From: a virus
DNA length: 27,182 nt
IMG/VR virus record: IMGVR_UViG_3300042472_000956
Span: 1-27,182 of that record
Direction: 5' to 3' (one strand)
Position numbers and translations under genes: made by a program. Below the pieces are notes generated by a model, which was not told where the DNA came from, did not search any database, and was given only the letters and a program-made list of their open reading frames with translations. Numbering within the stretch: the stretch's first letter is position 1; each line of letters begins with the position of its first letter. Below are positions 11,157 to 25,238 of this stretch, piece by piece.

Positions 11157-11370
11157 TAAACCTGTGACGGTTTCCTTAATCTGGAACAGGTGGCAGGTTC
11201 AGTTGTCAAGATTTCCAACCGAAAAGGCTGGTACAGAATCTGTACAGAAAACCCTGATAAATCTGTAATAAAACTTGCATGAAATTGGTATTATTTTTAA
11301 ACAAAAAACTGTACATAAAGCTTACAAAACCCTGCTAAACATAACGAATAAAGCCTTATAATATATCGCT

Positions 11371-11412
11371 TTGGGGTGGAAGAGGTCGCAGGTTCAAATC
11401 CTGTATCCCCGA
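11371..11412 (+). other. attP core: 3' half of tRNA-Pro(GGG)
   Basis: The sequence reads as the 3' part of a tRNA: anticodon loop TTGGGGT (11371-11377, anticodon GGG at 11373-11375), 3' anticodon stem GGAAG, variable loop AGGTC, T-stem GCAGG with T-loop TTCAAAT and CCTGT, acceptor strand ATCCCCG and discriminator A at 11412. No CGGGGAT acceptor partner or D arm lies upstream, and bases before 11371 do not pair with GGAAG. It is therefore a partial gene, as expected for an attachment core that restores the host tRNA-Pro after integration. The encoded 3' end is not CCA. Confidence 0.8.
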
Positions 11413-11434
11413 CTGGGTTTGGTGAAAAAACAGT

Positions 11435-11471
11435 AACCTAAGAATTCTGTACTGTACAGAAAACTTAGGTT
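11435..11471. repeat. 37-bp near-perfect palindrome beside attP
   Basis: Outer arms AACCTAAG (11435-11442) and CTTAGGTT (11464-11471) enclose the inner palindrome TTCTGTAC-T-GTACAGAA (11445-11461). The only breaks are AA facing AA and one central T. It lies between the tRNA core and the integrase start. A related smaller palindrome, TACAGA-A-TCTGTA, lies at 11232-11244. Candidate roles are an integrase/excisionase arm site or an operator controlling integrase. Confidence 0.7.
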
Positions 11472-11532
11472 CCTGTACCCTTTATGTTACCTGATGCAAC
11501 TTTTGCAAAAGATAAACATGAAGGTTCCAACG

Positions 11533-12726
11533 ATGAAAATTAAGATTCCTAAACTGTGTCATCATAAGGGCAGAAACCTTGGTTACACTACTAACCCTAG
11601 AACCAAGGCTGTTACCTACCATGGGCAATGGGGTTTGCGTGAAACAAAATCCAACTACGAAAAATGGCTGGCTGAATATCTAAGCGCAACAACCCAACCA
11701 GAATCCCACCAACCTTCTGAAGATACCACCCCAGCAGGGGAACCCATGCTTGCAGATTTAGTTACTGCATTTATGCAATGGGCAGATGGCTATTACAGAA
11801 ACCCAAAAACCAATTTACCCACCAGCCAGCACCATGTGTTAAGGTCAGCAATTCGGGAATTAAAACCATGGGTTGAATCTGGGATGCTGTGCAAGGATTT
11901 TACCACCAAAGATTTGCTGGCAGTTAGGGCTGCAATAATTCATCGTGACATAATGCCCCAATCCCAATTTACCCCAAAGAAAAAACTATCAATATCCAGT
12001 GTTAATATTTTGATTTGCAAAATCAGATTGTGCTTTAAAAAGGGTGTTGAATTTGGTTTGGTTCCCATCAATGTTTTTCAAGCTTTAATGTGTGTTCAGA
12101 ATCTCAACTGGCGAACAGCCCCAACCCTTAGAAATCCTGCCCCAATCAAACCTGCTGAAACTGTTTCCCTAGAAAAGATTCAAAGTTATTTAAAACCTGT
12201 TTACCAAGTGTTGATGAAAGTTCATCGCACAACAGGAATGAGGGTAAAGGAATTAGTGGAAATGCGTTGGTCAGAAATTACCCCAGAAAAAAATGATCCA
12301 ACTTTATATTGCTACCAACCTGCAACCCACAAGAATTCACATCGAGGGCAGGAAAGAAAAATTTTCATTCATGAAGATTTAATAGCTGACATGAAAGCAA
12401 TTAGAAAAAAGGTTTGGGAAAAAGATTTTTGCTGGTGCAGTACTGGCAAAGGAATCAATGCAGGTTACAGCGGGCAGATGACAAGTGCAGCATATTATTT
12501 GGCAATCAAAGGGGCTATCCGAAGATACAACAGAGATAACAAAACCCAGATTGAAAGGTTTACCCCACTTCAAATTAGACATTTAGTTGGCACCGAGATT
12601 AGGGAAACAGACGGAATAGAAGCTGCTGCTGCTACCCTTGGCCATGCGAGGTTGAACACCACAGAAATTTATGCAGAACAAAGTTTCACCAAGGCCAAGG
12701 AAAGAGCTAGGATAAAGCCTAAATAA
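11533..12726 (+). CDS. int: Tyrosine recombinase / phage integrase
   Basis: The start at 11533 has AAGG eight bases upstream. ATGs at 11494 and 11518 are in frame but poorer, and the product is 397 residues. The N-terminus (MKIKIPKLCHHKGRNLGY, then the WLAEYLSA helix) matches the DNA-binding head I associate with planctomycete integrases. The core-binding domain spans about 75-190. Catalytic landmarks are Arg237 in TTGMRVKELVEMRW, Lys267 in THKNSHRG, Arg349 in TPLQIRHLVG, His371 in LGHAR and Tyr380 in TTEIYAEQ. The first His of the usual HxxR box is Leu346. It recombines attP with the host tRNA site. It is adjacent to attP as usual and carries its own non-coding leader. Confidence 0.93.
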   Translation: MKIKIPKLCHHKGRNLGYTTNPRTKAVTYHGQWGLRETKSNYEKWLAEYLSATTQPESHQPSEDTTPAGEPMLADLVTAFMQWADGYYRNPKTNLPTSQHHVLRSAIRELKPWVESGMLCKDFTTKDLLAVRAAIIHRDIMPQSQFTPKKKLSISSVNILICKIRLCFKKGVEFGLVPINVFQALMCVQNLNWRTAPTLRNPAPIKPAETVSLEKIQSYLKPVYQVLMKVHRTTGMRVKELVEMRWSEITPEKNDPTLYCYQPATHKNSHRGQERKIFIHEDLIADMKAIRKKVWEKDFCWCSTGKGINAGYSGQMTSAAYYLAIKGAIRRYNRDNKTQIERFTPLQIRHLVGTEIRETDGIEAAAATLGHARLNTTEIYAEQSFTKAKERARIKPK

Positions 12727-12789
12727 ACGATTCATAAACTATGCTAATATTTACTAAATAATTATTTGTGAATATTTGAAGAATTATAA

Positions 12790-12817
12790 TTGACCAGCTG
12801 ATTAAATAATTTACACT
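12790..12817 (+). promoter_or_regulatory. Candidate sigma70-type promoter with operator-like repeat
   Basis: TTGACC (12790-12795), a 16-base spacer and TACACT (12812-12817) give 5/6 and 4/6 matches to the sigma70 consensus. The spacer begins with AGCTGATTAAA (12796-12806), which recurs exactly at 13340-13350 near the next gene's promoter. A start site near 12824 is predicted. Confidence 0.45.
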
Positions 12818-12845
12818 TTGCAAATCTGAGATTGAAAAGGATTTT

Positions 12846-12902
12846 ATTTGGGGCATGATGCCAGCCAAAATTCTTGATAGGATTTTGCCCAAATCTTTTT
12901 TT
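12846..12902 (+). terminator. Branched terminator-like RNA (possible sRNA or attenuator)
   Basis: The outer stem ATTTGGG (12846-12852) pairs with CCCAAAT (12888-12894) and is followed by C and seven T residues. It encloses a small hairpin GCA-TGA-TGC (12853-12861) and an 8-bp hairpin CAAAATTC / GGATTTTG (12866-12887, loop TTGATA). It may end the integrase transcript. Because a promoter candidate lies only about 30 nt upstream, it could also end a small RNA of about 80 nt or attenuate the gene at 12952. Confidence 0.5.
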
Positions 12903-12906
12903 AGTA

Positions 12907-12929
12907 CAGCAGCTTTGCCAAAGCTACTG
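12907..12929. repeat. Hairpin upstream of the winged-helix gene
   Basis: AGCTTT-GCC-AAAGCT is a perfect 6-bp hairpin with a 3-base loop, extended by CAG/CTG with one mismatch. It lies 23 nt before the gene at 12952 and has no following T-run on either strand, so it is not a simple terminator. A leader structure or protein-binding dyad is possible. Confidence 0.45.
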
Positions 12930-12951
12930 TTAAAACAGAAAGCACCGACCC

Positions 12952-13257
12952 ATGCCCCTGTCTTTATTCATTTCTGAATTGAACAACCCTTCCCTAAACC
13001 CCCCAGAACTGGTTTCCCCCCCCCCCCTGTTTAATTTATGTCGAAAGGAAAATTTTTTAGATAGATGGAAAATCTTTACGGAATTTGAAATTGAAATTTT
13101 GTCAGTGCTAAGCCAGTTTCCTAACCTTAAAGCAGATGGAATTGCCAAACAGTTAAAACGAACTAATGATGCAACCTTACGAACTAAGCTTGCAGATTTA
13201 AAAGAAAAATTAATTATCACCAGCAGTGGTAGAACTGGATATGTTTTAAATTTATAA
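12952..13257 (+). CDS. Small winged-helix-like putative regulator with poly-C tract
   Basis: The product has 101 residues. The first 35 are proline-rich and disordered, and they include a run of 12 C bases in the DNA. Residues about 45-101 (EFEIEILSVLSQFPNLKADG, then AKQLKRTNDATLRTKLADLK and SGRTGYVL) have the helix-helix-helix-wing pattern of a winged-helix DNA-binding domain. The ATG at 12952 has no good ribosome site, and no ATG in frame lies after the C tract, so the tract is inside the reading frame. The gene stands alone between a terminator-like structure and a strong terminator, next to the integrase. A lysogeny-control regulator is plausible but unproven. Confidence 0.5.
   Translation: MPLSLFISELNNPSLNPPELVSPPPLFNLCRKENFLDRWKIFTEFEIEILSVLSQFPNLKADGIAKQLKRTNDATLRTKLADLKEKLIITSSGRTGYVLNL
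13016..13027. repeat. Homopolymer C12 tract inside a coding frame
   Basis: Twelve consecutive C bases encode Ser-Pro-Pro-Pro-Leu in the putative regulator. A change of one base would remove the winged-helix domain from the frame. It is the longest homopolymer I see in the window. Confidence 0.9.
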
Positions 13258-13281
13258 ATCATGCAATTATATTTACATATT

Positions 13282-13309
13282 AAACCTCTGCAATTGCAGG
13301 GGTTTTTTT
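13282..13309 (+). terminator. Strong intrinsic terminator after the regulator gene
   Basis: AAACCTCTGC (13282-13291), loop AATT and GCAGGGGTTT (13296-13305) pair over ten positions with one T-G wobble, and the T-run continues to 13309. It separates the single-gene regulator transcript from the early operon that starts at 13429. Confidence 0.88.
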
Positions 13310-13323
13310 ATGCCTATTTTTTA

Positions 13324-13352
13324 TTGTCAAACTAATGTCAGCTGATTAAAAA
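13324..13352 (+). promoter_or_regulatory. Candidate early-operon promoter/operator
   Basis: TTGTCA (13324-13329), a 17-base spacer and TAAAAA (13347-13352) form a weak promoter candidate. The 11-base repeat AGCTGATTAAA at 13340-13350 overlaps its -10 and contains half of the palindrome TCAGCTGA. An alternative is TTGTTA at 13357 with CATTAT at 13381. Which of the two is used cannot be told from sequence alone. Confidence 0.35.
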
Positions 13353-13428
13353 ACTATTGTTAAATTTACAAATTAGAAATCATTATTAGAATTCTTTTTA
13401 GGTGACCAACCTGAAAGGAAAACTACTA

Positions 13429-13734
13429 ATGCAATCTTACAAAAGCCATATTCCAAAAAAAGTTTTATCGGTTAATGGATTAGCTAAACATTGGGATAGA
13501 ACCCCAGCAACAATTTATAATTACATAACCAAGGGCAGGTTATTTAAAGGCCAAAGAATTTACCTGCAAGCTACCAAGCTTGGGGGTGGGTATCTTATTC
13601 ACCCTACAGAAGTTGGAACATTCTTAGCAGCACTTAACAGCCCACCAGAAACTTCCAAGAAACCAACAAACAAAATTAATAAATCCATGGCAGAAAGAAT
13701 TGCCAAGGCTTTGCAGCATATCGAATTTAATTAA
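13429..13734 (+). CDS. HTH DNA-binding protein, excisionase/DUF1580-like
   Basis: The start at ATG 13429 has AAAGGA nine bases upstream. The GTG at 13402 is less likely. The 101-residue product contains a helix-turn-helix of the MerR/excisionase style (LSVNGLAKHWDRTPATIYNY, then ITKGRLFKGQRIYL and LGGGYLIHPTEVGTFLAALN). The order of helix-turn-helix, GR, an LGGG strand pair and a final helix resembles small planctomycete DNA-binding proteins (DUF1580-type) and phage Xis proteins. The C-terminus is basic. As the first gene of the early operon after a terminator, it may be an excisionase or a Cro-like early regulator. Confidence 0.55.
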   Translation: MQSYKSHIPKKVLSVNGLAKHWDRTPATIYNYITKGRLFKGQRIYLQATKLGGGYLIHPTEVGTFLAALNSPPETSKKPTNKINKSMAERIAKALQHIEFN

Positions 13735-13763
13735 CCCATTTACTTTCTTAAGGAGTTTTTAGC

Positions 13764-14510
13764 ATGGCAAATATTAAAACTAAATCTGTTATTTCAGATC
13801 AGGTTTTAGTGCAGGGGGATTTATCCAGCTTAACAGAAGATCAAAGGGCAGCATATTATTTAAAGGTTTGTGAAAGCTTGGGATTAAACCCACATACCCA
13901 ACCCTTTGAATATTTAAAACTAAATAACCAACTTAAGCTTTACGCAACCAAAGCTTGCAGTGATCAGCTAAGAAAAATCAATGGTGTTAGTTTAGAAATC
14001 ATTTCCAAAGAATTGGTTGATGAAGTTTATACTGTTACTGCAAGGGCAGAAGATGCTGCTGGCAGAAGAGATGAATCTTGTGGGGTTGTTAGTCTGAAAG
14101 GAATGCAAGGGGAGCCAAGAGCCAATGCAATCATGAAAGCTGAAACCAAGGCCAAACGCAGGGTTACCCTTTCAATCTGTGGTTTGGGTTGGTTGGATGA
14201 AACCGAAGTTGAATCTATTCAAGCTTCTTGCAAACAACCTGCAACCCAAACAATGAACCTAATTAAACAAAAAGATCCAGCAGGTTTTATTGATCATGTT
14301 GAAGAATTTAATGCAGAGCAGATGAATTCAGAATCCCTTGAAAGATCCGCATTAAAAAACCTGCTGCTGGATGTTGAAGAACTTAGCCCAGGAACACAGC
14401 GCAGAATGTTGGAGCATTACAAAACAATCGATGTTGAAGGTTTAACCCTAGAGCAAGTTCAATCGGCAGCAGAAAAATTAACCAGAAAATTGAAAGGTTT
14501 AACATCATGA
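13764..14510 (+). CDS. Putative single-strand annealing protein (RecT/Red-beta-like)
   Basis: The product has 248 residues and an ideal AAGGAG site eight bases before the ATG. Residues about 18-60 (LTEDQRAAYYLKVCESLGLN, then P-x-T-x-PFEYLKLN and YATKACSDQLRK) resemble the start of the Red-beta/RecT fold. The segment near residues 113-150, with ANAIMKAETKAKRRVTLSIC and GLGWLDETE, matches a phage annealing-protein group I recall. The C-terminal 80 residues are a helical acidic tail. It would pair ssDNA at phage ends or during recombination-dependent replication. It is followed by Gp157 and an SSB-like protein, a grouping common for phage annealing systems. No RecE/exonuclease gene is obvious next to it. 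Confidence 0.65.
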   Translation: MANIKTKSVISDQVLVQGDLSSLTEDQRAAYYLKVCESLGLNPHTQPFEYLKLNNQLKLYATKACSDQLRKINGVSLEIISKELVDEVYTVTARAEDAAGRRDESCGVVSLKGMQGEPRANAIMKAETKAKRRVTLSICGLGWLDETEVESIQASCKQPATQTMNLIKQKDPAGFIDHVEEFNAEQMNSESLERSALKNLLLDVEELSPGTQRRMLEHYKTIDVEGLTLEQVQSAAEKLTRKLKGLTS

Positions 14511-15031
14511 GTTTATTTGATTTATCTGCCAGTGCAGCCATCATGAAATTTTGGATTGAAACAGAATCCCAAACTGATGAATCTGGGGAACTAACAGGGG
14601 AAATTAACCCAACCATTGATGCCCTTATTGCAGAGCTTGAAGGCAACATTGAAGCCAAGGTTGAAAACTATTGCTGGCTAATCAGGGAAATAGAAGGAAG
14701 GGCATTGGTAAGGCAGACTGAAGCCAAGAGGATTAGGAACCTAGCATTGACCAATGAAAACATGGTTAAGAGTTTGAAGGAAAGGCTTAAGTTCTTTTTT
14801 GAATCCCAAGCCATTTTGAAGCTTGAATGCAAAACCTTTAAAGTTTCGATTGCCAATAATGGTGGGGTGCAGCCCCTGCAGGTTGACCTTCCGGCAGATC
14901 AGTTGCCAGTTCAATTTCAAAAGGTAACCATTGAACCTGATAACGCAAGTATTAGGAAAGCCTTGGAAATTGGAACCCGGATTGAAGGTGTTAAATTGTT
15001 GCCCCGTGGAACCTCATTAAGAATTAAATAG
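14507..15031 (+). CDS. Gp157-family protein
   Basis: This 174-residue protein is coupled to the previous gene by an ATGA overlap. The layout is that of the siphovirus Gp157 family (PF05565): an N-terminal helical part (NPTIDALIAELEGNIEAKVE, YCWLIREIEG), a heptad-rich middle (AKRIRNLALTNENMVKSLKE), and a C-terminal beta part ending in PDNASIRKALEIGTRIEGVK and LPRGTSLRIK. Family members have been linked to phage resistance and recombination, but the biochemical role is unclear. Its neighbours are annealing and SSB-like genes. Confidence 0.85.
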   Translation: MSLFDLSASAAIMKFWIETESQTDESGELTGEINPTIDALIAELEGNIEAKVENYCWLIREIEGRALVRQTEAKRIRNLALTNENMVKSLKERLKFFFESQAILKLECKTFKVSIANNGGVQPLQVDLPADQLPVQFQKVTIEPDNASIRKALEIGTRIEGVKLLPRGTSLRIK

Positions 15032-15042
15032 GAGAATGAAAA

Positions 15043-15495
15043 ATGGATTTTATGAATACGCAACAGGATTTAAAATCAGAATCAAAATTCGCCAAGGTGA
15101 ATGATTTACCTGATGGAAAATATTCTGGCAAGATTACTTCTGCAGGTTTTGTTGAAGTAACTATTAAAGCAACCCAAGAGAAAAAACAAACCTTCCAAAT
15201 AAAAATAATGATAGCAGGGGTTGAAACACAAATGACCTATTGGCTAGCAACTGATGCTGATTTTAGAAGGTTGCTAACCAGCCTTGGAAGAATTGGTTTT
15301 GATGTTGAAAATTGGGGGCCAGCTTTCAAGAAGCCTTATCGAATCCAAATTGAAAAGGCTGCAGAAACTTTGATTAATCATGTGTTGAGTTTTCACAAAC
15401 GAACCACCCCCAATGGATATCCTGCAATTGGGTTGGATGAACTTTCAGAATCTAATAAGGAAATCCAGGCCGAACTGGATGAACTACCTTTCTAA
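15043..15495 (+). CDS. ssDNA-binding-like protein (DUF669-type) with SSB tail
   Basis: This 150-residue protein has a GGAG site eight bases before the ATG. The core is an OB-like beta domain (LPDGKYSGKITSAGFVEVTI, KKQTFQIKIMIAG, then a RRLLTSLGRIGF helix), similar to DUF669-type phage proteins. The last residues, QAELDELPF, mimic the acidic tail ending in PF by which bacterial SSB recruits partner proteins. It probably coats ssDNA for the annealing protein two genes upstream. SSB-type function is inferred from tail, size and context. Confidence 0.65.
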   Translation: MDFMNTQQDLKSESKFAKVNDLPDGKYSGKITSAGFVEVTIKATQEKKQTFQIKIMIAGVETQMTYWLATDADFRRLLTSLGRIGFDVENWGPAFKKPYRIQIEKAAETLINHVLSFHKRTTPNGYPAIGLDELSESNKEIQAELDELPF

Positions 15496-15589
15496 TACCC
15501 ATTAGGGGTGGCTGCAGTGGTTGTTCATCTGCAGGGTTTTCAATGGGGCTGCTGTTACCCACCCACCAGCAGCAACAATATTCATGAAG
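15496..15589. other. Intergenic stretch with a 7-bp hairpin
   Basis: No credible gene lies here. GCTGCTG (15548-15554) and CAGCAGC (15567-15573) form a hairpin with a 12-base loop, and two CTGCAG palindromes lie near 15513 and 15529. Together with 15590-15666 this makes the whole 191-nt gap structured. Confidence 0.5.
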
Positions 15590-15666
15590 ATTGGGCTGGT
15601 TTGTGCCATATGAGATATAAGGCCAGTAACACACTTTGACTTGTGGTCAAAAACTGCCAGCCCAAT
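15590..15666 (+). ncRNA. Candidate structured RNA, three-way junction
   Basis: The outer 10-bp stem is ATTGGGCTGG (15590-15599) with CCAGCCCAAT (15657-15666), a perfect match. Inside is hairpin A: GCC and ATAT (15605-15611), loop GAG, then ATAT, an AA bulge and GGC (15615-15623). Hairpin B directly abuts it: CAGT (15624-15627) with ACTG (15653-15656), and TTTGAC (15635-15640) with GTCAAA (15646-15651). The only junction linker is TTTGT. Five T bases follow at 15668-15672, and the AAAGGA ribosome site of the next gene is at 15674-15679. This fits a cis-acting leader RNA or a terminator-like switch for the 15687 gene. Confidence 0.5.
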
Positions 15667-15686
15667 GTTTTTAAAAGGATTTAAAA

Positions 15687-16280
15687 ATGGATTTGATAGA
15701 AGTAAAAAACCAGAACTTTCCAGATGATTTTGAAAGCTTTTTAAAACCAGATATCTTAGCAGCCCTTTTGGTGCAGATGCAAAATTCAACTGCAACCAGA
15801 AACATTTACCAAGTAAGGGCAATGTTTATTTCAGATAAGAAAGATGATGTTAGCTTTAACTATCATCTAACCACTTTGGGTGGGGCTGATGATGGCTTGC
15901 AGGTAATGCATTCAAACACAATCAAAACCCCAGACCACTTGAAAACCTTTTTAATTCAGATGGCCCTTCTTGGTTATAAGCCTTGGGAATGGGGCGCAGA
16001 TAAGAAGCTGAATTTTGTTGAAGGCTGGCATATTGCAGAGAATGAAATCGATGGCTGCAAGGTTGTTGGGTTTGCTATGGATGAATGCCTAACAATGTTT
16101 TCTTATGATGCTTGTATCCATCAAGTTTTTTGCGATGAATGCCATACCCCCAGCCAGCTTTCATGGGATGAATTATCTTTTGAAACTTGGATTAATCGTA
16201 ATGGCTGGCTTGGGTTTCCTGATGGTGAATTCTGCAAATACTTCTGCCCAAAATGCGTTAAGAAAATATCCAAGCTATAA
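15687..16280 (+). CDS. Hypothetical early protein with Cys-rich C-terminus
   Basis: The product has 197 residues with AAAGGA seven bases before the ATG. Residues about 1-120 form an alpha/beta domain with no family I recognise (VSFNYHLTTLGGADDGLQVM, FLIQMALLGYKPWEWG). The C-terminal 70 residues contain two Cys pairs, CDEC (about 148-151) and CPKC (about 189-192), with further Cys and His between, suggesting one zinc-binding domain split by a 35-residue insert. It lies between the structured intergenic element and a DUF3310 gene, in the replication block. The function is unknown. Confidence 0.6.
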   Translation: MDLIEVKNQNFPDDFESFLKPDILAALLVQMQNSTATRNIYQVRAMFISDKKDDVSFNYHLTTLGGADDGLQVMHSNTIKTPDHLKTFLIQMALLGYKPWEWGADKKLNFVEGWHIAENEIDGCKVVGFAMDECLTMFSYDACIHQVFCDECHTPSQLSWDELSFETWINRNGWLGFPDGEFCKYFCPKCVKKISKL

Positions 16281-16289
16281 GGGGCATTC

Positions 16290-16520
16290 ATGACAGATAA
16301 AGAAATTAACAGCCCAGAACATTACCAAGGTAACAACATTGAATGCATTGATGCAATTAAGGCAATGGTTGGGCATTACGGATTTATAACTTACCTGCAA
16401 TGTAGCGTAATGAAATACCTGTGGAGATTCCCAGCAAAAGGGAACCCAGCGCAAGATTTGAAAAAGGCAGAATGGTTTTTGCAAAGGTTGATTACGGAAA
16501 TTGAATCAAAGGATATCTAG
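16290..16520 (+). CDS. DUF3310 family protein
   Basis: This 76-residue protein carries the DUF3310 (PF11753) signature: SPEHYQGNNIECIDAIKAMV, a central YLQCSVMKYLWRF segment and a DLKKAEWFLQRLI helix. These small phage proteins are often annotated as nucleotide-kinase-like, but their activity is not established. The ATG follows AGGGG by five bases, only nine bases after the previous stop. The gene ends at the second structured intergenic stretch. Confidence 0.85.
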   Translation: MTDKEINSPEHYQGNNIECIDAIKAMVGHYGFITYLQCSVMKYLWRFPAKGNPAQDLKKAEWFLQRLITEIESKDI

Positions 16521-16750
16521 GGGCAACCATTCCAATTGCCAGCAGGTTAATCTTTTTAAGCAACCAAGATTAATTTGAACAACTGGGGTTAAACTTTTGG
16601 AATGGGGTTTTATTCAAGGTTAATCCCATTGGAAAATGCCAGAAAAGTAAGATTGTTTCTGAAAAACTGGCTGTTGTGGGACACTTTTTCAATGGGGTTT
16701 TTATCACAGGGTGGGGGAATTACCCCACCCTAAACAAGAAGGCTTCAACC
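16521..16750. other. Structured intergenic region with four inverted repeats
   Basis: This 230-nt stretch has no credible gene. It contains GGCAA/TTGCC (16522-16540), TTAATCTT/AAGATTAA (16547-16573), AATGGG/CCCATT (16601-16630), and a perfect GC-rich hairpin GGGTGGGG/CCCCACCC with loop GAATTA (16709-16730). AATGGGGTTTT occurs twice (16601 and 16691). No T-run follows the GC-rich hairpin, so it is not a typical intrinsic terminator. A frame could be opened by GTG at 16676, but it would run through the hairpin and lacks a ribosome site. Confidence 0.55.
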
Positions 16751-17374
16751 ATGATTTATTTTCAAGGCATGACAAAAACAGAATTGGTTAAAACAATTCG
16801 GGATGCTATTAAAAACATTGGCTATGAAGTTGAATTTGAAAACCAGTTAATTTGTGATTTGATAGGTGAACACCATTATTATTGGTCAACACAAAAAATA
16901 AAACCATCTAAGTTTAAAAAATCCTTCATGCCCAAAAGCTATATTTTTAAAGGTTGGACAGAAAAAGAAGGTTGGAAAGATGTTTCATGGAAAAAATGCA
17001 TTTACAAAAAAGATTCAAACGCAATTTTAGTTGAAGCTTTAAGGTATGCATCACACCCATTTCTTTTGGAATACAGAAAAAACAATCCAATTTGTGAGAT
17101 TTGCAAAATAGCAAAATCAACTGAAGTTGATCATGTAGAACCAACATTTAAAAAATTAGCTGAAGGGTTTTTAAGTGCTTTGACAGAGGAACAGATTGAA
17201 AAAATCAAAAGCAGTTTTAACTTTTGCAAATTTGAAAAGTTTAGTTTCCCTGATGAATTTGAATTATCCAGAAGCATGAAGATTATTCATGAAACAGCAA
17301 TAATAAAAGCAGTTTGCAAATTGTGCCATTTAGATTCAGCAAGAGTAAGAAAACAAAAACAAGGGGTTAAATAA
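16751..17374 (+). CDS. HNH-type nuclease-like protein (DUF3223-like)
   Basis: The start chosen is ATG 16751 (AAGAAGG eight bases upstream), giving 207 residues. GTG 16676 and ATG 16769 are alternatives. The C-terminal half has CEICK, then VDHVEPTFKKLAEGFL, then after about 60 residues VCKLCHLDSA. Separation of the DH motif from the last CxxC by a long insert is what I recall from bacterial DUF3223-linked HNH proteins. The N-terminal half has aromatic and Lys-rich beta segments (YYWSTQKIKPSKFKKSF). It could cut DNA, or be a degenerate zinc-binding form. It sits directly before the replication gene, two bases away. Confidence 0.55.
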   Translation: MIYFQGMTKTELVKTIRDAIKNIGYEVEFENQLICDLIGEHHYYWSTQKIKPSKFKKSFMPKSYIFKGWTEKEGWKDVSWKKCIYKKDSNAILVEALRYASHPFLLEYRKNNPICEICKIAKSTEVDHVEPTFKKLAEGFLSALTEEQIEKIKSSFNFCKFEKFSFPDEFELSRSMKIIHETAIIKAVCKLCHLDSARVRKQKQGVK

Positions 17375-17375
17375 C

Positions 17376-18422
17376 ATGAGATATAAAATTAAGAACTGGG
17401 AGAAGTTTCAACATTATAAAGATAGGAAACCTTTGTGGATCAAACTTTACAGAGATATTTTAGATTCCAGAGATTGGGCAGCCCTATCTGGAATGGCTGC
17501 AAAAACCTTAATTATGGTTTGGTTAATTGGTTCTGAATACGATGGAACATTACCCTTAAATGATGTGTTATCTTTCAGATTGCGAATTAAAATAAGTGAT
17601 CTTGAAAAATGCATTCAAGAACTAATTGAAAATGAATTTATTATTGAATCAGAAGAAGCCCCCAAATCAGAAAAAACAACTAGCAAAGAGTTGAAAGAAA
17701 AATCTGGTTTTGGTGATAGATATGTTAGCCAAACAACTAAGAACCTAATCATGATTAGGGATGTTAATTGTGTAAGCTGTGGAAGTTCTGAAAACCTTGA
17801 AATTGATCATATAAAACCAGTTTCAAAAGGAGGAAATTCTGAACCCGAAAACCTGCAACTTCTATGCAGATCATGCAACAGAAGTAAAAGGGCAACATAT
17901 TCAGCGGAGCAGGTTGCTACACATTTGGCGCAAGTTGCTACGCATTCTACAAGCGGTGAAAACCTGTGTAGCCTAGAGAAAGAGAAAGAGATAGAGATAG
18001 AGACAGAGATAGAGATAGAGACAGAGATAGAGATAGAGACAGAATATAGTTCAGAACTGGTTCCCAGTTCCAAACCTGCCCAGCCCAATTATCAACCAGA
18101 AATCAAATTTCCCTGCAAAGGCAACCCTGCAGAATGGGTATTGCCCCAAAGCTTATTTGATGACATTCAAGAAACCTTCAAGGATGATCCTATTTTGAAT
18201 TGGATCATGAAGGCAAGGCTTTGGGCTATTACCAACCCAAAGAAGCGAAAAACAGCAAAGGGGATGCCTACATTCTTGATTGGATGGATGGGAAGACAGA
18301 ATGACAGGCCAAACCAGAATGCAACCTACCAAACCAATGGAAAATCCAAACCAACAAACCTGCAAGAAGTGTTAGCCAAAATGCCAGCAGGTTTTGTTAT
18401 GCCAGGGGAGCAAAAACTATGA
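17376..18422 (+). CDS. Replication initiator-like protein with internal HNH domain
   Basis: The product has 348 residues. Residues 1-92 (NWEKFQHYKDRKPLWIKLYR, then LPLNDVLSFRLRI and LIENEFIIES) match the winged-helix head of phage replication initiator/organiser proteins. Residues 132-171 are a full HNH domain: Cys132/Cys135, Asp144-His145 in LEIDHIKPVSKGG, Asn159, Cys164/Cys167. Residues about 200-223 are a Glu/Ile/Thr low-complexity linker from an 18-bp tandem repeat. The C-terminal part (WIMKARLWAITNPKKRKTAK, then FLIGWMGR) is the tail often seen in initiator proteins. It likely binds the origin and recruits a loader. The HNH domain is an added nuclease or structural zinc module. An ATGA overlap joins the next gene. 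Confidence 0.7.
   Translation: MRYKIKNWEKFQHYKDRKPLWIKLYRDILDSRDWAALSGMAAKTLIMVWLIGSEYDGTLPLNDVLSFRLRIKISDLEKCIQELIENEFIIESEEAPKSEKTTSKELKEKSGFGDRYVSQTTKNLIMIRDVNCVSCGSSENLEIDHIKPVSKGGNSEPENLQLLCRSCNRSKRATYSAEQVATHLAQVATHSTSGENLCSLEKEKEIEIETEIEIETEIEIETEYSSELVPSSKPAQPNYQPEIKFPCKGNPAEWVLPQSLFDDIQETFKDDPILNWIMKARLWAITNPKKRKTAKGMPTFLIGWMGRQNDRPNQNATYQTNGKSKPTNLQEVLAKMPAGFVMPGEQKL
17988..18041 (+). repeat. 18-bp tandem repeat, three copies, in frame
   Basis: Three exact copies of an 18-base unit (GAGATA twice, then GAGACA) encode EIEIET three times, preceded by GAGAAA units. Slippage by whole units would change linker length without breaking the frame. Confidence 0.9.
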
Positions 18423-19096
18423 ACCAGATAACCAACTTTGTAACCAATTCAAACCCAACATGGGCAGATTGGATTGAACATCATGCCACTTTCTATGGTT
18501 GGGAAACAGAAGCCCAATTAAAAATGCTGCTTGCATGGTCAAAGTATTTTGATGATGAAGGGTTTGGGCCAGAAGAATTGATGGCTGCAAGTAAAGATTT
18601 AACAGATGTAAAAATCTTCAAGAAAGAGGATACCATTTACGAGTTAGAAAAGGCGGTAAAACAGCGCAGAGAAACCCACAGGCAAAAAAATGAACCTGCT
18701 GTTGTTGATTGCAAAAGATGTTTGGGGTTTGGGTTGATTCCAGTACCCCACCCAAAGTTCATCAAAGATGGGGTTTGGAATTCGAAATATACCTGTGCGG
18801 TTTGCTGTACTTGTTTGAATGGATTGAAATACAAACCAAACCTTAGCCCCGAAAATAACAAAAGCATTTTAAATCTGTTGGACTATGAAAAGATTAATCC
18901 CTTCTGGGAAAGGCAAATGGCAAACTTTAGAGAATCAGAAAGGAAACTTGCAGACTTGATGAATGCCCAGAACCCCAAAAGGAATACGGAATTAGATGCT
19001 ATCCTTGAAAGGATAAAAAAAAGGCAGGAAGAACTTAAGGCCAAACCCGAACCCGAAAAATGGATCATTGAAAAATCAGTTAGAACTTATGGGTAA
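18419..19096 (+). CDS. Hypothetical replication-region protein with Cys cluster
   Basis: This 225-residue protein is coupled by ATGA to the initiator-like gene. The N-terminal 70 residues are helical (WADWIEHHATFYGWETEAQL and onward). A cysteine cluster follows, CKRC at 98-101 and CAVCCTC at 126-132, probably a zinc site. The C-terminal 80 residues are charged and helical (AILERIKKRQEELKAKPEPE). Position directly after an initiator often belongs to a helicase loader, but no Walker A motif is present, so it is not an ATPase loader. The function is unknown. Confidence 0.6.
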   Translation: MNQITNFVTNSNPTWADWIEHHATFYGWETEAQLKMLLAWSKYFDDEGFGPEELMAASKDLTDVKIFKKEDTIYELEKAVKQRRETHRQKNEPAVVDCKRCLGFGLIPVPHPKFIKDGVWNSKYTCAVCCTCLNGLKYKPNLSPENNKSILNLLDYEKINPFWERQMANFRESERKLADLMNAQNPKRNTELDAILERIKKRQEELKAKPEPEKWIIEKSVRTYG

Positions 19097-19115
19097 TTTT
19101 GGAAAGGATTCCTAA

Positions 19116-19697
19116 ATGATAACTATTGAATTAGATCAAAACCAAGCTGGCTTAATTTGGATGGCTGCAAGTGCAAAAGCTGATTGGATGATAGCGCATG
19201 GTTGGCCAGCTATTCAATCAGAGAAGTTAAAAAATTACGGTTTAACCAAAGATGATGAACAAACCTACCATCAAGCAATTGGGCTTGCAGGGGAAGCTGC
19301 TGTGCATCTGTGGGTTTATGGCAACCTTTCAAAGTTCTTTGAAGCCCAACGAATTAACCAAGCTGCTACCACTGGGGATGGCGGGGAAGATATGGCAGGG
19401 ATAAACATTAAAGCAGTTGATTCCCTTTGCAGTTTACCCATGCAGCAAAACCTGTTGGTGCAATCTGCAAGGCTATCAACCAATATTATTTACCTGCAAA
19501 CCCTAGTTATGATTTCAGAACCATTCATGTTTATTTCTAATCTGAAGGTAAAAATAGTAGGGGCAATTTCTGGCAGTTCAATTGCCAACAACTTTAAACC
19601 CAGCCATGGGAACCCACCCTGTTACATGGTTCCCTTTGAATTGCTATTTCCCCCAGAAGCTTTGCTTTGGAATGAACACAAAAGGAAAATCAAATGA
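19116..19697 (+). CDS. PD-(D/E)XK nuclease-like protein
   Basis: The product has 193 residues with AAAGGA seven bases before the ATG. The arrangement resembles restriction-endonuclease-fold proteins of phages: Glu60 in the helix AIGLAGEAAVHLWVYG, then TGDGGEDMAGINIKAV (Asp92 and Lys99), then a strand NIIYLQTLVMIS. In active enzymes the residue two before the Lys is usually Asp, Glu or Gln. Here it is Asn97, so activity is uncertain. The C-terminal part is unassigned. It lies between replication genes and RusA, consistent with DNA processing. Confidence 0.5.
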   Translation: MITIELDQNQAGLIWMAASAKADWMIAHGWPAIQSEKLKNYGLTKDDEQTYHQAIGLAGEAAVHLWVYGNLSKFFEAQRINQAATTGDGGEDMAGINIKAVDSLCSLPMQQNLLVQSARLSTNIIYLQTLVMISEPFMFISNLKVKIVGAISGSSIANNFKPSHGNPPCYMVPFELLFPPEALLWNEHKRKIK

Positions 19698-20047
19698 TTG
19701 GCAGATGTAGACATTGCGACAAAATCAGGTTGATTTATTATGGGCTTTGCACCAAATGCAATTGCAAGCCAAGGGATTTATACCGATTGCTAAAACGAAA
19801 CCTTAATCTAAAGATGAAAATAGAAACCCTTAAAAAAAGGGCAGGTGAGAAACACAGGCTTTTAAATAATATCAGGGGAAAGTTTTACAACCTGCAGAAA
19901 GTTTGCAAAAGAACCACAAGGGCTTTATATGAAATTGATGATGCCAATCCCGCCATCTGTAAATCATATGTACCGAAGCAAAAGGGGCGGAGTTTACAAA
20001 AGCAAAAGATACCTGCAATGGATAGAGGAAGCAGCCTTGATGATTAA
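19694..20047 (+). CDS. Small zinc-ribbon-like protein overlapping rusA
   Basis: The product has 117 residues and starts in an ATGA overlap. The N-terminus has two Cys pairs, CRHC (5-8) and CTKCNC (19-24), suggesting a zinc knuckle, followed by a strongly basic helical segment (LKRNLNLKMKIETLKKRAGE). The last 40 residues are encoded by bases that also encode the start of the RusA-like protein in another frame (119-nt overlap), and they look less protein-like (KGRSLQKQKIPAMDRGSSLD). It is probably a nucleic-acid-binding protein. The C-terminal end may be a by-product of the overlap. Confidence 0.5.
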   Translation: MIGRCRHCDKIRLIYYGLCTKCNCKPRDLYRLLKRNLNLKMKIETLKKRAGEKHRLLNNIRGKFYNLQKVCKRTTRALYEIDDANPAICKSYVPKQKGRSLQKQKIPAMDRGSSLDD

Positions 20048-20291
20048 AACCACCCGCAAAGGGGCAAAGATTTACCCGCCCTACAAATTCATTATGACGA
20101 TTTCGGGTGGCAAGGGTTGGAGAAGCAACAGGGATTTAGACAACTGTTTAAAACCAGTGCTTGACCTGTTAACCACGATGAACATTATTGAAGATGATAA
20201 TTGCCATCTGGTTAACAGCCTTTCAGTTATCTTTGTTGCTGGCAATGGATCAGATGCCAAATGTATGGTTGAACTATTGGAGAACCACTAA
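19929..20291 (+). CDS. rusA: RusA-family Holliday junction resolvase
   Basis: The product has 120 residues. The start MKLMMPIPPSVNHMYRSKRG is the typical RusA opening (P-x-PPSVNH). The SNRDLDNCLKPVLDLLTTMN segment carries the conserved aspartates, and IIEDDNCHLVN supplies another. RusA dimers resolve four-way DNA junctions, here presumably before packaging. The length matches the family (about 120). The ATG at 19929 lies inside the upstream gene with ACAAGGG as its likely ribosome site. It joins the HNH gene by TAATG. Confidence 0.9.
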   Translation: MKLMMPIPPSVNHMYRSKRGGVYKSKRYLQWIEEAALMIKTTRKGAKIYPPYKFIMTISGGKGWRSNRDLDNCLKPVLDLLTTMNIIEDDNCHLVNSLSVIFVAGNGSDAKCMVELLENH

Positions 20292-20632
20292 TGCCATGGG
20301 AAATTCCGAATCATGATCCAAACCCCAAAAAGAAACTTCCCAAGGGAAAGAAGAAACCAGAAACCCACAACAGGCCCAGCCCATCAATCAGGGGATATGG
20401 CAGAAGGTGGGAACATATCAGATTGGCATTACTGCAAGAGGAACCACTTTGCAGATTATGCCAAGGCCCAGCAAGTTGCGTGGATCATATTAAGCCATTA
20501 AAAAAGGGTGGTACACATGACAAACTTAACCTGCAACCATTGTGCGCATCATGCCACAATAGCAAAACATGGCATGAAACTTGGGGCGCAAAGATGAATA
20601 AGGGAAAAGGCAAAACTAATGAAAACCCTTGA
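20291..20632 (+). CDS. HNH endonuclease next to terminase
   Basis: The product has 113 residues. The basic N-terminus includes RGYGRRWEHIRLALLQEEPL, followed by the HNH motif: Cys54/Cys57, Asp65-His66 in CVDHIKPLKKGGTHDKLNLQ, Asn80, Cys85 and Cys88-His89. Small HNH proteins at this place, directly before the small terminase, are known in cos-type phages (for example HK97 gp74) to stimulate terminase cutting at cos. The 100-nt gap after it is therefore a good place to look for cos. Confidence 0.88.
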   Translation: MPWEIPNHDPNPKKKLPKGKKKPETHNRPSPSIRGYGRRWEHIRLALLQEEPLCRLCQGPASCVDHIKPLKKGGTHDKLNLQPLCASCHNSKTWHETWGAKMNKGKGKTNENP

Positions 20633-20742
20633 ATTATGCGGAAATTTAGGGGGTAGGGGGGGATGATGACATTTTAGAAAAAGGCCGGAGTACCTACACG
20701 AAAAATTCCACGATTTTGGACAAAAAATTTAGGCAATAAGGA
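20633..20742. other. Candidate cos/packaging region
   Basis: This gap between the HNH and small-terminase genes has a base pattern unlike its surroundings: GGGGG (20649-20653) and GGGGGGG (20656-20662), then AGGCCGGAGTACCTACACG, then an inverted repeat AAAAT/ATTTT around TCCACG near 20703-20718. Cos sites of HNH/P27-type phages lie in this place and often have G-runs. The exact cut cannot be read from sequence. Confidence 0.4.
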
Positions 20743-20750
20743 TGTTAGTT

Positions 20751-21227
20751 ATGGCAAAAGGTAGAAAAGCACAATTAAGACAAGTATTATCTTTAAATAT
20801 TAACAAGAAACCAAGCAGAAAAAACCCTGCCCCTGTTGAATTCGATTTATCAATTCCCCTAATGCCCAACTGGTTAGATAAAGTTGGTAAGGAAAAATGG
20901 CTGGCATTAACCACAGGGTTAAAACATATGGCGATTTTATCCCCTGTTGATGCAGATATACTGGCTGCATACTGCGCTTTGTATTCACAGATGGTTAGGT
21001 GTGTTATCAAGCTAAATAAATCTGGTGGGTTTACAACTTCCCAAAATGGTGGGCCAGAAAAAACAGATCCTGCAGTTGACCAGCTAACAGTAATTTCAAA
21101 TCGGCTTGCAGGGCTTGGGAAAAATCTTGGGTTAAACCCACTGGCCAGAAGCAAGTTGGTTGCAGATCCAACCATTCAAGAAAAAGATTGGCTGGATAAT
21201 ATGTGCAAAGAAAAAACAAATGAGTAA
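20751..21227 (+). CDS. terS: Terminase small subunit, P27 family
   Basis: The start at 20751 puts AAGGA eight bases upstream (ATG 20742 overlaps that site), giving 158 residues. The sequence fits the P27-type small terminase: a basic N-terminus, IPLMPNWLDKVGKEKWLALT, SPVDADILAAYCALYSQMVR, and a C-terminal NRLAGLGKNLGLNPLARSKL helix. It recognises the packaging site and hands DNA to the large subunit, whose start lies in an 8-nt overlap. Confidence 0.9.
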   Translation: MAKGRKAQLRQVLSLNINKKPSRKNPAPVEFDLSIPLMPNWLDKVGKEKWLALTTGLKHMAILSPVDADILAAYCALYSQMVRCVIKLNKSGGFTTSQNGGPEKTDPAVDQLTVISNRLAGLGKNLGLNPLARSKLVADPTIQEKDWLDNMCKEKTNE

Positions 21228-22746
21228 AAAGAAAATCGCAGATCCTTTGATAATTGGTTTTATTGAAAGAGCTTTAACCCTTTCTGTTGGGGAATGGGCT
21301 GGTAAACCTTTCAAGCTTCAAGAATGGCAGAAGGAAATTCTTAGGGCAATCTTTTTACCCTTAGATAAAAATGGTAACAGAGTGGTTAGGCAGGTTTATT
21401 TGGAAGTTCCAAGGAAGTCTGGAAAATCAACCCTTGCTAGTGCAATTGCTTTATGGCTTTTGGTTGAAGGGGAACCAGGGGCGCAAGTTTTTTCTGCTGC
21501 TTGCAACAGGGAGCAAGCGAAAATCTGCTTTAATTCTGCAGTTGAAATGGCTAGGAATTGCCCTGCCTTGAAGAATAAGCTGGAAATACAGAAGGAAAAA
21601 ATCGAATATTCCAAGCTTAGAAGCTTTTACAAATCGATATCCAGTGAATCAGATTCTGCCCACGGCACGAACCCCCACGGAATCATCCTTGATGAACTGC
21701 ATACCCAAAAATCGAGGGAGTTATTTGATACTTTATTAACTGGAACCTTGGCACGAAGGCAACCATTAGCAGTAATGATTACCACAGCAGGTTCAGATAG
21801 AACTTCTTTTTGTCATGAGATGCACCAGTACGCAGAAAAGATAATTGATGGAACCATAATCAACCCAAGTTTTGTAGCCAGAATATTTTCAGCAGCAATT
21901 GAAGATGATTGGACAGCAGAAGAAACTTGGAAAAAAGCAAACCCAGGTTATGGGGTAACCGTAAAACCAGAATACTTTTTTCAACAGGTGCAGGAATGTA
22001 AAGATAACCCAGCCAAAGAAGCAGCATTCCGCAGAGATCACCTAAACCAATGGGTTGAAACTGATATCAGATGGATTTCCCCGCTTAAGTGGGATGAATG
22101 CCAAATAGATAAACCCAATCTAGATTTTAGAGATTGTTACCTAGGTCTTGATTTAAGTAATACTTTAGATTTAACGGCTGCAGTTTTACTTTTCCCACCC
22201 ACCCATGAAGATGAACCAGCTTTTGTTTTGCCTTTTTTCTTTTGCCCTTCTGAGGGTTGGAAACTGAGGGAGAGATTAAACAAGTTTAAAATAAAACCTT
22301 GGGTTGCTGCAGGGCATATTATAGAAACCCATGGGAACAAAATTGATTACAGGTTGGTTAAAAAACATATTCAAGAGTTAGCCCAAAAATATAACATCTT
22401 GGAAATAGTGGTTGACCCTTGGCATCATGATCAAATCATCCATGAACTAGATGAATTTACCTGCATCAAGTTTCCCCAAACCCCACCCAACATGGCCCCA
22501 CCAACTAAAAAACTTGAAGAATTAATACTAACCAAGGGTTTAGCCCATGCAGGTAACCCTGTTTTGAGATGGAATTTAGGGAATATTTCCTGCAGTTTGG
22601 ACGATAATGCCAATTACAAGCTTTCTAAAAAAAAGAGTCGTGATAAAATTGATGGGATCATTGCCCTTATAATGGCCATTGGCAGATGGCAAGTTAATCA
22701 GATTTCACCAACAGAAACCCAAGGGGCAGGAATTGAATTCCTGTAA
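21220..22746 (+). CDS. terL: Terminase large subunit (ATPase and nuclease)
   Basis: The product has 508 residues from ATG 21220. A longer frame from 21160 would overlap terS by 68 nt, without support. Residues 63-71 hold the Walker A-like VPRKSGKST, GIILDELHT is Walker B with the catalytic Glu, and TTAGSD is the coupling motif. The RNase-H-like nuclease domain shows YLGLDLSNTLDLTA, EIVVDPWHHDQI and a final acidic SRDKIDGIIALIMAIG. This is the Terminase_1/HK97-type layout. It translocates DNA into the prohead through the portal encoded next. Confidence 0.95.
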   Translation: MSKKKIADPLIIGFIERALTLSVGEWAGKPFKLQEWQKEILRAIFLPLDKNGNRVVRQVYLEVPRKSGKSTLASAIALWLLVEGEPGAQVFSAACNREQAKICFNSAVEMARNCPALKNKLEIQKEKIEYSKLRSFYKSISSESDSAHGTNPHGIILDELHTQKSRELFDTLLTGTLARRQPLAVMITTAGSDRTSFCHEMHQYAEKIIDGTIINPSFVARIFSAAIEDDWTAEETWKKANPGYGVTVKPEYFFQQVQECKDNPAKEAAFRRDHLNQWVETDIRWISPLKWDECQIDKPNLDFRDCYLGLDLSNTLDLTAAVLLFPPTHEDEPAFVLPFFFCPSEGWKLRERLNKFKIKPWVAAGHIIETHGNKIDYRLVKKHIQELAQKYNILEIVVDPWHHDQIIHELDEFTCIKFPQTPPNMAPPTKKLEELILTKGLAHAGNPVLRWNLGNISCSLDDNANYKLSKKKSRDKIDGIIALIMAIGRWQVNQISPTETQGAGIEFL

Positions 22747-22752
22747 AATATA

Positions 22753-24615
22753 ATGGCATTAACCATCAGAAGTTTCTTTGCTAACACCATGGCAAAACTT
22801 GCTGGTTATAACCTGTTAACGGATGCTGGCAGTTGGTCGCTTACTGGAACTGCAACCACAGGGCAGAATGTAAACACTGCTTCTGCCCTTACCTATTCAG
22901 CAGTTTGGGCTGCAGTCAGGGTTATTTCAGAAGCTGTTTCCAGTTTGCCCCTGCAAGTATTCATGAAAGATAGTCAAGGGGGCAGATCAAAAGCTTTGGG
23001 CCATCCACTTTATCGTATTTTGCATGACCAACCAAACCCCGAAATGTCATCTTTAACCTTTAGGGAAACCCTGATGGGCCATGTTCTAACATGGGGGAAT
23101 GGTTTTGCAGAGATTGTAAGGGATAAAATAACAGGCAGGGTTATGGAATTATGGCCCCTTGACCCCAGCCAAGTCAAAATTGTAAGGGATAATGAAGGGA
23201 ATTTGTATTATCAGTATGGAACAATCATCTTTTTACCTGCTGAAATTCTGCATATTAAGGGGTTAGCTTTTGATGGGGTTGCAGGTTATTCAGTTATCGG
23301 GATGGCAAAGAATTCAATTGGGTTGGGAATGGCTGTTGAAGATTTTGGGGCAACCTTTTTTGGGCAGGGTGGGAAACCTGCTGGGGTAATCACAGTACCC
23401 CACAAGCTTAATTCAGAAGCAATTCAGAATATGCGAAAATCTTGGGAAGAAATGCATTCAACAAACAAGAATGCCCATAGGGTTGCCATCCTTCAAAATG
23501 GGGTTGCATACCAAAGCATTGGAACCCCCCCAGATGATGCCCAATGGATTGCAAGTAGAACATTTCAAATAGAAGAGATTGCAAGATGGTTCAAGATACC
23601 CCCAAGCAAGTTGGGGAATGGGAAAGGAACCTACACCAATCTGGAACAGGATAACCTTTCATTCCTTCAAGAAACTTTGCGCCCATGGCTAATCAGATGG
23701 GAGCAGGAAATTAATTTTAAATTGATTAGTTCAATGGATTCAATGTATGCAGAACATAACCAAGATGCTTTGATGAGGGGCGATAGCCAAGGAAGGGCTG
23801 CATTTTATGCACAAGCTTTAAATTGGGGATGGCTATCTAGGAATGATGTTAGGTCAATGGAAAACCTGCCCCCATTTGAAGGTGGGAACAGTTACATGAT
23901 TCCAAAAAATATGGATCCAGCATTTGGGCCAGGTTCCCCTGCTGTTGCTGTTGATGCTGCAGCCCTTGCCAATCAATTACCTGCAACCCAAACAAGCCCA
24001 CAGGATGCCCCTGTTTTAGCAACTGCCCCCCCTGCAGCAGATGTTGCAGCAACTGCCCTTAACGGGGCGCAGATATCAAGCTTGGTTGATATAGTTGCCA
24101 AGGTTGGGGAAGGGTTGTTACCTTTGGAATCTGCAAAGGCAATTGCCCAAGCCAGTTTCCCTTTTTTATCCCAAGCAGTTCTGGATGCAATATTTTCAGG
24201 AATCAAGGTTATGATTTCCCAACCCACCCCACTAGAACCCCAGAAAAATTCAGAACCAGAACTAGGTTTTGCAGGATTGCTTGAAGCTGCAAGGGTGCAA
24301 ATCAGAAAAATAGAATTCATCTTTTTAACTAGGGTTGCAAACAGACCAGGGGATTTTATACCAGCCTTGGAGAAATTTCTTGAAGCGCATGAAGGCAGGG
24401 TTGAAACAATCCTAGAACCTGTTTTAGAATTTATTAAACCTGCTGCAGGTGGGGCATCAAGGGCAGCCAGCGAACATTGCCAAAGTATAAAATCAATATG
24501 GTTAGAGATTGCAGGGAATTCAACCATGAAGAATTTTAAAGCCAATGCAGATGAAGTTTTAAGGGATTGGATTACAACACAAACAGAATGGGAGAAAACA
24601 TCATGGTTAAATTAG
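22753..24615 (+). CDS. HK97-type portal protein, long C-terminus
   Basis: The product has 620 residues. The portal core spans about 1-410, with VWAAVRVISEAVSSLPLQVF, RETLMGHVLTWGNGFAEIVR, WPLDPSQVKI, FGQGGKPAGVITVP and FKIPPSKLG typical of phage portals of the HK97 family. A Pro/Ala-rich linker with low complexity (about 395-435) leads to a helical extension of about 185 residues (LNGAQISSLVDIVAKVGEGL and onward). The usual length is about 400, so the extension is substantial, though portals with a helical tail beginning LNGAQ are common. It forms the dodecameric DNA gate at the capsid vertex. It overlaps the protease start by 13 nt. Confidence 0.93.
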   Translation: MALTIRSFFANTMAKLAGYNLLTDAGSWSLTGTATTGQNVNTASALTYSAVWAAVRVISEAVSSLPLQVFMKDSQGGRSKALGHPLYRILHDQPNPEMSSLTFRETLMGHVLTWGNGFAEIVRDKITGRVMELWPLDPSQVKIVRDNEGNLYYQYGTIIFLPAEILHIKGLAFDGVAGYSVIGMAKNSIGLGMAVEDFGATFFGQGGKPAGVITVPHKLNSEAIQNMRKSWEEMHSTNKNAHRVAILQNGVAYQSIGTPPDDAQWIASRTFQIEEIARWFKIPPSKLGNGKGTYTNLEQDNLSFLQETLRPWLIRWEQEINFKLISSMDSMYAEHNQDALMRGDSQGRAAFYAQALNWGWLSRNDVRSMENLPPFEGGNSYMIPKNMDPAFGPGSPAVAVDAAALANQLPATQTSPQDAPVLATAPPAADVAATALNGAQISSLVDIVAKVGEGLLPLESAKAIAQASFPFLSQAVLDAIFSGIKVMISQPTPLEPQKNSEPELGFAGLLEAARVQIRKIEFIFLTRVANRPGDFIPALEKFLEAHEGRVETILEPVLEFIKPAAGGASRAASEHCQSIKSIWLEIAGNSTMKNFKANADEVLRDWITTQTEWEKTSWLN

Positions 24616-25172
24616 AAACCCGATTCAGTTCAGAAATCAGAATGGAACTATCAGGGAAGAAAATCGTAGGCTATGCAGCCAAATTTGCCCCCAATAGAAG
24701 CCAAGATTTGGGGGGATTCATTGAACAGATTGACCCCAAGGCATTTACCAGAAGCCTTAAAGCTAATGCAGATGTTAGGGCTTTGATTGACCACAACCCC
24801 AGCTTGATTTTGGGCAGAACCCTTTCTGGAACTTTGCAACTTTCCACAGATTCAACAGGCTTATTGGTTGAGATAACCCCACCCGATACCAGTTATTCAA
24901 GGGATTTGATGGTAAGTTTGGAAAGGGGAGATGTAACCCAGATGAGTTTCGCATTTATTACCAAGGAAGATTCTTGGGATAAGGAAGAATCTATAAATGT
25001 TAGAACCCTTCTTGATGTTGATTTGCATGATGTTTCTGCTGTTACCTACCCTGCTTATCTGAATACTGAAATTGGGTTAAGAAGTTTGCTTGAACATGAT
25101 GCAAACAAAAAGGTTAACCAAGTTCAATGGCAGATCAACTTGGCAAAGTTTTTGAAACTTAAATATTCTTAA
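24603..25172 (+). CDS. Prohead protease, HK97 gp4 family
   Basis: The start at 24603 is supported by GGGAG eight bases upstream. In-frame ATGs at 24567 and 24588 lie inside the portal gene. The 189-residue product has IVGYAAKFAPNRSQDLGGFI, then His64 in ALIDHNPSLILGRT and Ser115 in TQMSFAFITK, the positions of the catalytic His65/Ser115 of HK97 gp4. It cleaves the capsid protein's N-terminal delta domain during maturation. It ends just before a terminator. Confidence 0.94.
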   Translation: MVKLETRFSSEIRMELSGKKIVGYAAKFAPNRSQDLGGFIEQIDPKAFTRSLKANADVRALIDHNPSLILGRTLSGTLQLSTDSTGLLVEITPPDTSYSRDLMVSLERGDVTQMSFAFITKEDSWDKEESINVRTLLDVDLHDVSAVTYPAYLNTEIGLRSLLEHDANKKVNQVQWQINLAKFLKLKYS

Positions 25173-25207
25173 CTACTAATTTGATCTTGTTTAGTAATTG
25201 AAACTAA

Positions 25208-25238
25208 AACCCCTATTTATCTAGGGGTTATTTTTTTT
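25208..25238 (+). terminator. Intrinsic terminator after the protease gene
   Basis: AACCCCTA (25208-25215), loop TTTATC and TAGGGGTT (25222-25229) form a perfect 8-bp stem, followed by A and eight T residues. It separates terminase/portal/protease expression from the capsid transcript. Confidence 0.92.

Follow-up and report, generated by a model that had tools for sequence, protein, structure and literature searches.

What is the folded segment that fills the gap between two genes in the early region of this virus, and which of them, if either, does it serve? The DNA analysed here (the window: 27,182 nucleotides, positions 1 to 27,182 of IMG/VR virus record IMGVR_UViG_3300042472_000956) carries genes for integrase, Gp157, DUF3310, HNH, terminase, portal, protease and capsid proteins. 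An earlier note had drawn a compact three-way-junction RNA at 15590–15666, directly before the ribosome-binding site of the gene at 15687, and likened its geometry to that of riboswitch-like or protein-binding leaders. The sample numbers hint at a freshwater origin, as no more than a guess. Elsewhere in the contig, the stretch at 11370–11412, close before the integrase gene, resembles a tRNA gene's 3' half (perhaps of tRNA-Pro); it is a possible phage attachment site and is adjoined by an inverted repeat at 11430–11476. About four 18-bp tandem repeats within the replication-protein gene (17974–18043) recall lambda-type origin iterons.

The pieces of the drawn element are all present. The perfect 10-bp outer stem pairs ATTGGGCTGG (15590–15599) with CCAGCCCAAT (15657–15666) and encloses two adjoining hairpins, GCC-ATAT-GAG-ATAT-AA-GGC and then CAGT...ACTG; the TTTGT linker and the AA of the first hairpin are in place, and five T residues (15668–15672), then AAAGGA, follow as described. 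The minimum free energy of 15590–15666 is −27.5 kcal/mol (z −3.22; one of 200 shuffles equally good) and a repeat run gave z −3.4, so that the predicted excess over shuffled sequence exists (z about −3.2 to −3.4). However, z ≤ −3 is reached by 2.3% of the 77-nt windows in the contig, and fold energy alone is insufficient to settle the element, because several other stretches of the contig fold as well. A perfect 10-bp stem with at least six GC pairs and such spacing occurs once, against 0.43 expected. The CAGT:ACTG closing helix is absent in single-sequence folding (p 0.003–0.005), the drawn structure being 5.9 kcal/mol worse.

Relatives were reached through the protein encoded at 13764–14510, named recombinase-like from its position and sequence pattern, with no database match. 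A covariance model built from the single window element (R1), applied to the loci of the best 80 of 462 relatives of this protein, detected at least 34 further loci on the gene strand (E 1e-15 to 1e-4); an independent search with a junction-sequence pattern matched one contig of the same set. Alignment of the gaps of these relatives revealed a conserved region running from 1–5 nt past the stop codon of the upstream gene to the P3 stem, which corresponds to 15496–15668 of the window (around 173 nt). Thus, the three-way junction is real, but 15590–15666 is too short and constitutes only the 3' half of the conserved RNA. A full-length covariance model (R2, 172 model positions) matched at least 35 loci in IMG/VR phage contigs, the window included (24 distinct sequences), with 141–212 bits; the match in the window scored 141.1 bits (E 7e-39). 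Each record has one genuine copy, and weak minus-strand matches to R2 overlap the same place. Searches with the neighbouring proteins 15043 and 15687 returned a near-identical contig only; the outer-stem pattern returned 38 stretches, none related apart from the near-identical contig; and relatives of the terminase and the replication protein gave no further match with R1 or R2. The absence of matches in Bacteroidota, searched as a host group (0 of 198 genomes), says little. When 11160–27177 of the window is compared with IMGVR_UViG_3300042393_001390, identity is 100% over 12043–19277, with 149 mismatches elsewhere in the aligned part, a pattern that suggests recent recombination.

Two other proposals were discarded. 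The gap at 16521–16751 has TTTTCAATGGGG in common with the RNA, but the alignment is near chance (22 of 300 shuffles) and R2 finds a single copy in the window. Small open reading frames or stop-codon read-through in the RNA's own gap were dropped on inspecting the relatives' sequences by eye, their frames not being conserved because the relatives differ by indels and in-frame stops. The 16521–16751 gap is itself structured: before the open reading frame 16676–17374, GGGTGGGG and CCCCACCC make up a strong hairpin (at 16693, z about −4.4), the flanks of which may pair with the ribosome-binding region.

The aligned relatives point to a two-domain structured RNA at 15496–15668 (+ strand, as are all features below), beginning right after the upstream stop codon (15493–15495). 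In the 5' domain, P1 (15498–15547) pairs CCCATT (15498–15503) with AATGGG (15542–15547) in 100% of cells of the 24 sequences, its variation being confined to one side, with zero double changes. The P1a hairpin (15512–15534) joins CTGCAG (15512–15517) to CTGCAG (15529–15534) and covaries, appearing as CTGCAG/CTGCAG, CCACAG/CTGTGG, CAGAGG/CCTCTG, CGGGA/TCCCG and CAAGGA/TCCTTG. The covarying P2 hairpin (15548–15573) pairs GCTGCTG (15548–15554) with CAGCAGC (15567–15573), both sides having changed in five of its eight pairs, and holds ACCCACCCA in its loop. GGGTGG in the interior of P1 (15506–15511) is complementary to CCACCC in the loop of P2 (15559–15564), and both strands are invariant in 24 of 24 sequences; they probably form a pseudoknot (15506–15564), for which covariation can give no proof because nothing varies. 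An unpaired interdomain linker (15574–15589), with a highly conserved TATTCATG in alignment A4, leads to the 3' domain, the element of the earlier note (15590–15666), closed by P3, which is 100% paired and has double changes in four pairs. Within it, P4 (15605–15623; GCC-ATAT-GAG-ATAT-AA-GGC) covaries, GCC/GGC being replaced by GGC/GCC and UCC/GGA in relatives. P5 (15624–15656) combines covariation with conservation: the upper helix, TTTGAC/GTCAAA, varies among relatives as CUGAC/GUCAG, CUUGC/GCAAG and CGAAC/GUUCG, the internal loop AACACAC (15628–15634) is highly conserved, and in the lower helix, CAGT/ACTG, AGU:ACU is kept in 24 of 24 sequences, the pair that closes it being U-A in 20 sequences and C-G in two. 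Pairing of the P5 loop with the AACACAC loop was also considered and rejected, being broken, as judged by eye, by the variants in loci L132 and L139.

Taken together, P1a, P2, P3, P4 and P5 all covary. Across the 24 distinct sequences of alignment A8, pairing holds in 98.3% of 1086 cells, and 19 of 46 pairs are double-changed. Double changes fill 93 cells, a count of sequences (many of them close relatives) rather than of events; shuffles give 24.6, with none among 500 reaching 93, and sliding the partner strand gives no more than 11 cells and four pairs. Being fitted to R2, A8 leans towards that model, but the MAFFT alignment A4, made from sequence alone, agrees with it: 94.9% of cells are paired, 18 pairs are double-changed, and the 75 double-change cells compare with no more than 13 in slid controls. 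Compensatory changes are therefore present in relatives beyond the controls, and it is this comparative evidence that is decisive for 15590–15666. The relatives vindicate the drawn CAGT:ACTG helix in spite of the energy model, and the statement that the structure is hard to explain by chance stands through their covariation, not through its energy, which is not unusual in the contig. A chance fold without function, with which the commonness of such energies in the contig would by itself agree, is already refuted by the 35 homologous loci and the strong covariation, and we give it next to no credence.

G-U cells outnumber A-C cells by 47 to 1, and the transcribed + strand is thus the functional one, although single-stranded DNA of the + strand is still compatible with this excess. 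The context of replication and recombination genes, and the exchange of flanking genes at the RNA, would suit an element acting as DNA, either a single-strand structure with a part in replication or recombination, or a linker that owes its conservation chiefly to its use by recombination. The great excess of G-U over A-C weighs against it, as do compensatory changes that keep helices for which a mere stretch of homology would have no need, and we consider this reading improbable.

The RNA is tied to the gene upstream rather than to 15687. In 35 of the 35 loci found, the RNA starts 1–5 nt past the stop codon of a gene that in the window (15043–15495, + strand) encodes 150 amino acids ending in ELDELPF and lies directly upstream; this linkage may be overstated, since all homologues were reached through relatives of one recombinase-like gene. 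From the position, the LPF tip after acidic residues (25 of 25 proteins compared) and a low-confidence strand pattern, we infer that the product is SSB-like; searches of Pfam, PHROG and PDB gave no supporting match, and single-sequence structure predictions were too poor for use (pLDDT 51 for 15043 and 35 for 15687). An RNA within 5 nt of the SSB-like stop codon in every locus might be a 3'-UTR element through which the SSB-like mRNA is regulated or stabilized, perhaps in a feedback with the SSB-like protein itself as the binding partner. This seems unlikely, however, in that the same RNA accompanies SSB alleles only around 40% identical and that the SSB-like gene occurs in some relatives where the RNA is absent. 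In loci L119–L122, the recombinase-like, Gp157, SSB-like and 15687 genes occur without the RNA and with a short hairpin instead; the RNA is accordingly not essential, as some phages of the same group lack it. The letters of that hairpin, GGGTGG...CCACCC, which lies past the SSB-like stop codon and before the 15687 homologue, are those of the pseudoknot strands of the RNA.

The downstream side is far more variable, about ten unrelated gene families following the RNA among the loci found: an AlpA-like regulator, the 15687 family, a protein with weak endonuclease matches, DUF6378, ParB-like proteins and several without an assigned identity. In the window, the RNA ends around 20 nt before the start codon of 15687–16280 (+ strand; 197 amino acids), a gene without assigned function that represents one of these alternative families. 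A riboswitch or protein-binding leader dedicated to this gene, as the earlier note had proposed, would accord with that short distance and with the 15687 relatives that follow the RNA in L111–L117. Yet other genes occupy the place in most relatives and close 15687 homologues occur without the RNA, and the variety of genes downstream has already largely refuted the dedicated leader, which is very improbable. These same facts, together with the U5 run, a hint of a terminator or expression platform that is present in the window but in a minority of relatives, make a ligand-sensing riboswitch unlikely, whereas protein binding, the other half of the proposal, is possible. The AGGA of the window lies in a weak A-U hairpin, and the sequence of the relatives differs there.

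Both flanks change around a constant RNA. Of the RNAs, 42 pairs reach an identity of 95% or more; the SSB-like proteins are less than 60% identical in 28 of these pairs, downstream homology is absent in 35, and both hold in 25; the SSB alleles flanking near-identical RNAs are often only around 40% identical. From this mosaicism, it seems that the DNA of the RNA also provides the common sequence at which SSB alleles on one side and downstream genes on the other undergo recombination. Such constancy between changing flanks, with a single copy per record and highly conserved loops and linkers (AACACAC, TATTCATG and the UUGUU loop), would also be expected of a trans-acting phage RNA processed from the early-operon transcript, which would bind a protein or an RNA of either host or phage and act, for instance, as decoy or regulator. 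We consider this possible, but neither a conserved promoter nor a conserved terminator accompanies the RNA, and a trans-acting role leaves the fixed spacing from the SSB-like stop codon without explanation.

Signals for independent transcription were sought at the RNA. No conserved promoter was found there, promoter-like scores being no better than those of shuffled sequence, and no conserved terminator, a T-run following P3 in only seven of 24 sequences; a terminator scan found no intrinsic terminator at the element, which has a large multibranched loop and no conserved U-run. Thus, the RNA is probably part of the early-operon mRNA.

Of all these readings, the one that we favour, if tentatively, is a cis-acting element on the early-operon transcript that acts irrespective of which gene lies downstream; it is followed in our ranking by the processed trans-acting RNA, control of the SSB-like gene and the DNA-level element. 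The RNA would be carried untranslated in a transcript that encodes the recombinase, Gp157 and the SSB-like protein and then variable genes; it would take up its fold after the ribosome has cleared the SSB stop codon, and a protein bound to it (RNA polymerase, an RNase or a phage factor) would control transcription through, or the stability of, whichever segment follows. Both the action in cis and the independence are suggested by sequence comparison: the covariation far above shuffled and slid controls with its G-U bias, the SSB-like gene always upstream against about ten families downstream, the near-identical single-copy RNAs between unrelated flanks, and the probable place in the operon transcript. 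On the other side stand the absence of the RNA from some phages of the group, its fixed place after the SSB-like gene, which could equally mean control of SSB, and the scarcity of strong intrinsic terminators downstream (two matches in 88 kb of + strand, 4 kb per locus, both at one position shared by a pair of near-identical loci). A put-like antiterminator may be one form of the cis-acting element, and would need to act on Rho or pausing because intrinsic terminators are so few.

No match to a described RNA was found. Neither the window nor any of seven homologue loci matched Rfam 15 (4227 models) at the gathering threshold, in agreement with the statement that no known riboswitch family is recognizable, and the sub-threshold matches were to unrelated miRNA, snoRNA or AT-rich models. 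blastn against INPHARED and PLSDB found no relative in phage or plasmid records, and no description of the RNA was found in the open-access literature, subscription journals being mostly outside that coverage. The nearest in theme is the STAXI motif, a candidate RNA in which a pseudoknot recurs two or three times and UUCG loops are frequent, and whose neighbours are often genes for single-stranded-DNA-binding proteins, integrases and antirestriction proteins (Weinberg 2010, PMC2864571). The RNA described here shares with it a probable pseudoknot and an SSB-type gene nearby (35 of 35), but its architecture is different, with one pseudoknot domain plus a three-way junction and no UUCG repeats, and cmscan found no STAXI match even at E 10. 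The L17 downstream element follows the gene for ribosomal protein L17 in Lactobacillales and Listeria (PMC2864571) and is likewise a conserved structured RNA with a set place in a single gene's 3' UTR; cmscan gave no match to it here. As a model of function, the putRNA of phage HK022 (around 70 nt, two stem-loops, downstream of early promoters) makes RNA polymerase resistant to termination and pausing (PMC9378689). It too is structured, belongs to the early operon of a phage and acts in cis on any sequence downstream, whereas the present RNA is around 173 nt long, with at least six helices, lies mid-operon and has few intrinsic terminators downstream. The lambdoid nut site is a short boxA-boxB element recognized by N, without a large covarying structure; nut sites and linker sequences at the mosaic joints of phages lie just past the stop codon of an early gene and form the conserved joint between exchanged modules. 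The RNA resembles them in position and in its role at a joint, and only the RNA has a large covarying structure.

Few structured phage RNAs have a known function. The RNA reported here is well supported by covariation, is absent from Rfam and is present in many IMG/VR phage contigs (at least 24 distinct sequences from one partial search) at a joint of gene exchange, where it keeps its place after the SSB-like gene while both neighbours change. R2 and alignment A8 provide a defined model for searching, and the element is directly testable. On balance, we lean towards regarding it as a class of phage RNA not described before, distinguished by an invariant pseudoknot and a three-way junction. It would work independently of its neighbours, placed at the constant end of an early-operon slot whose genes can be exchanged. 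If so, it may serve, for example, to control transcription through the inserted genes, or may be an RNA aimed at the host.
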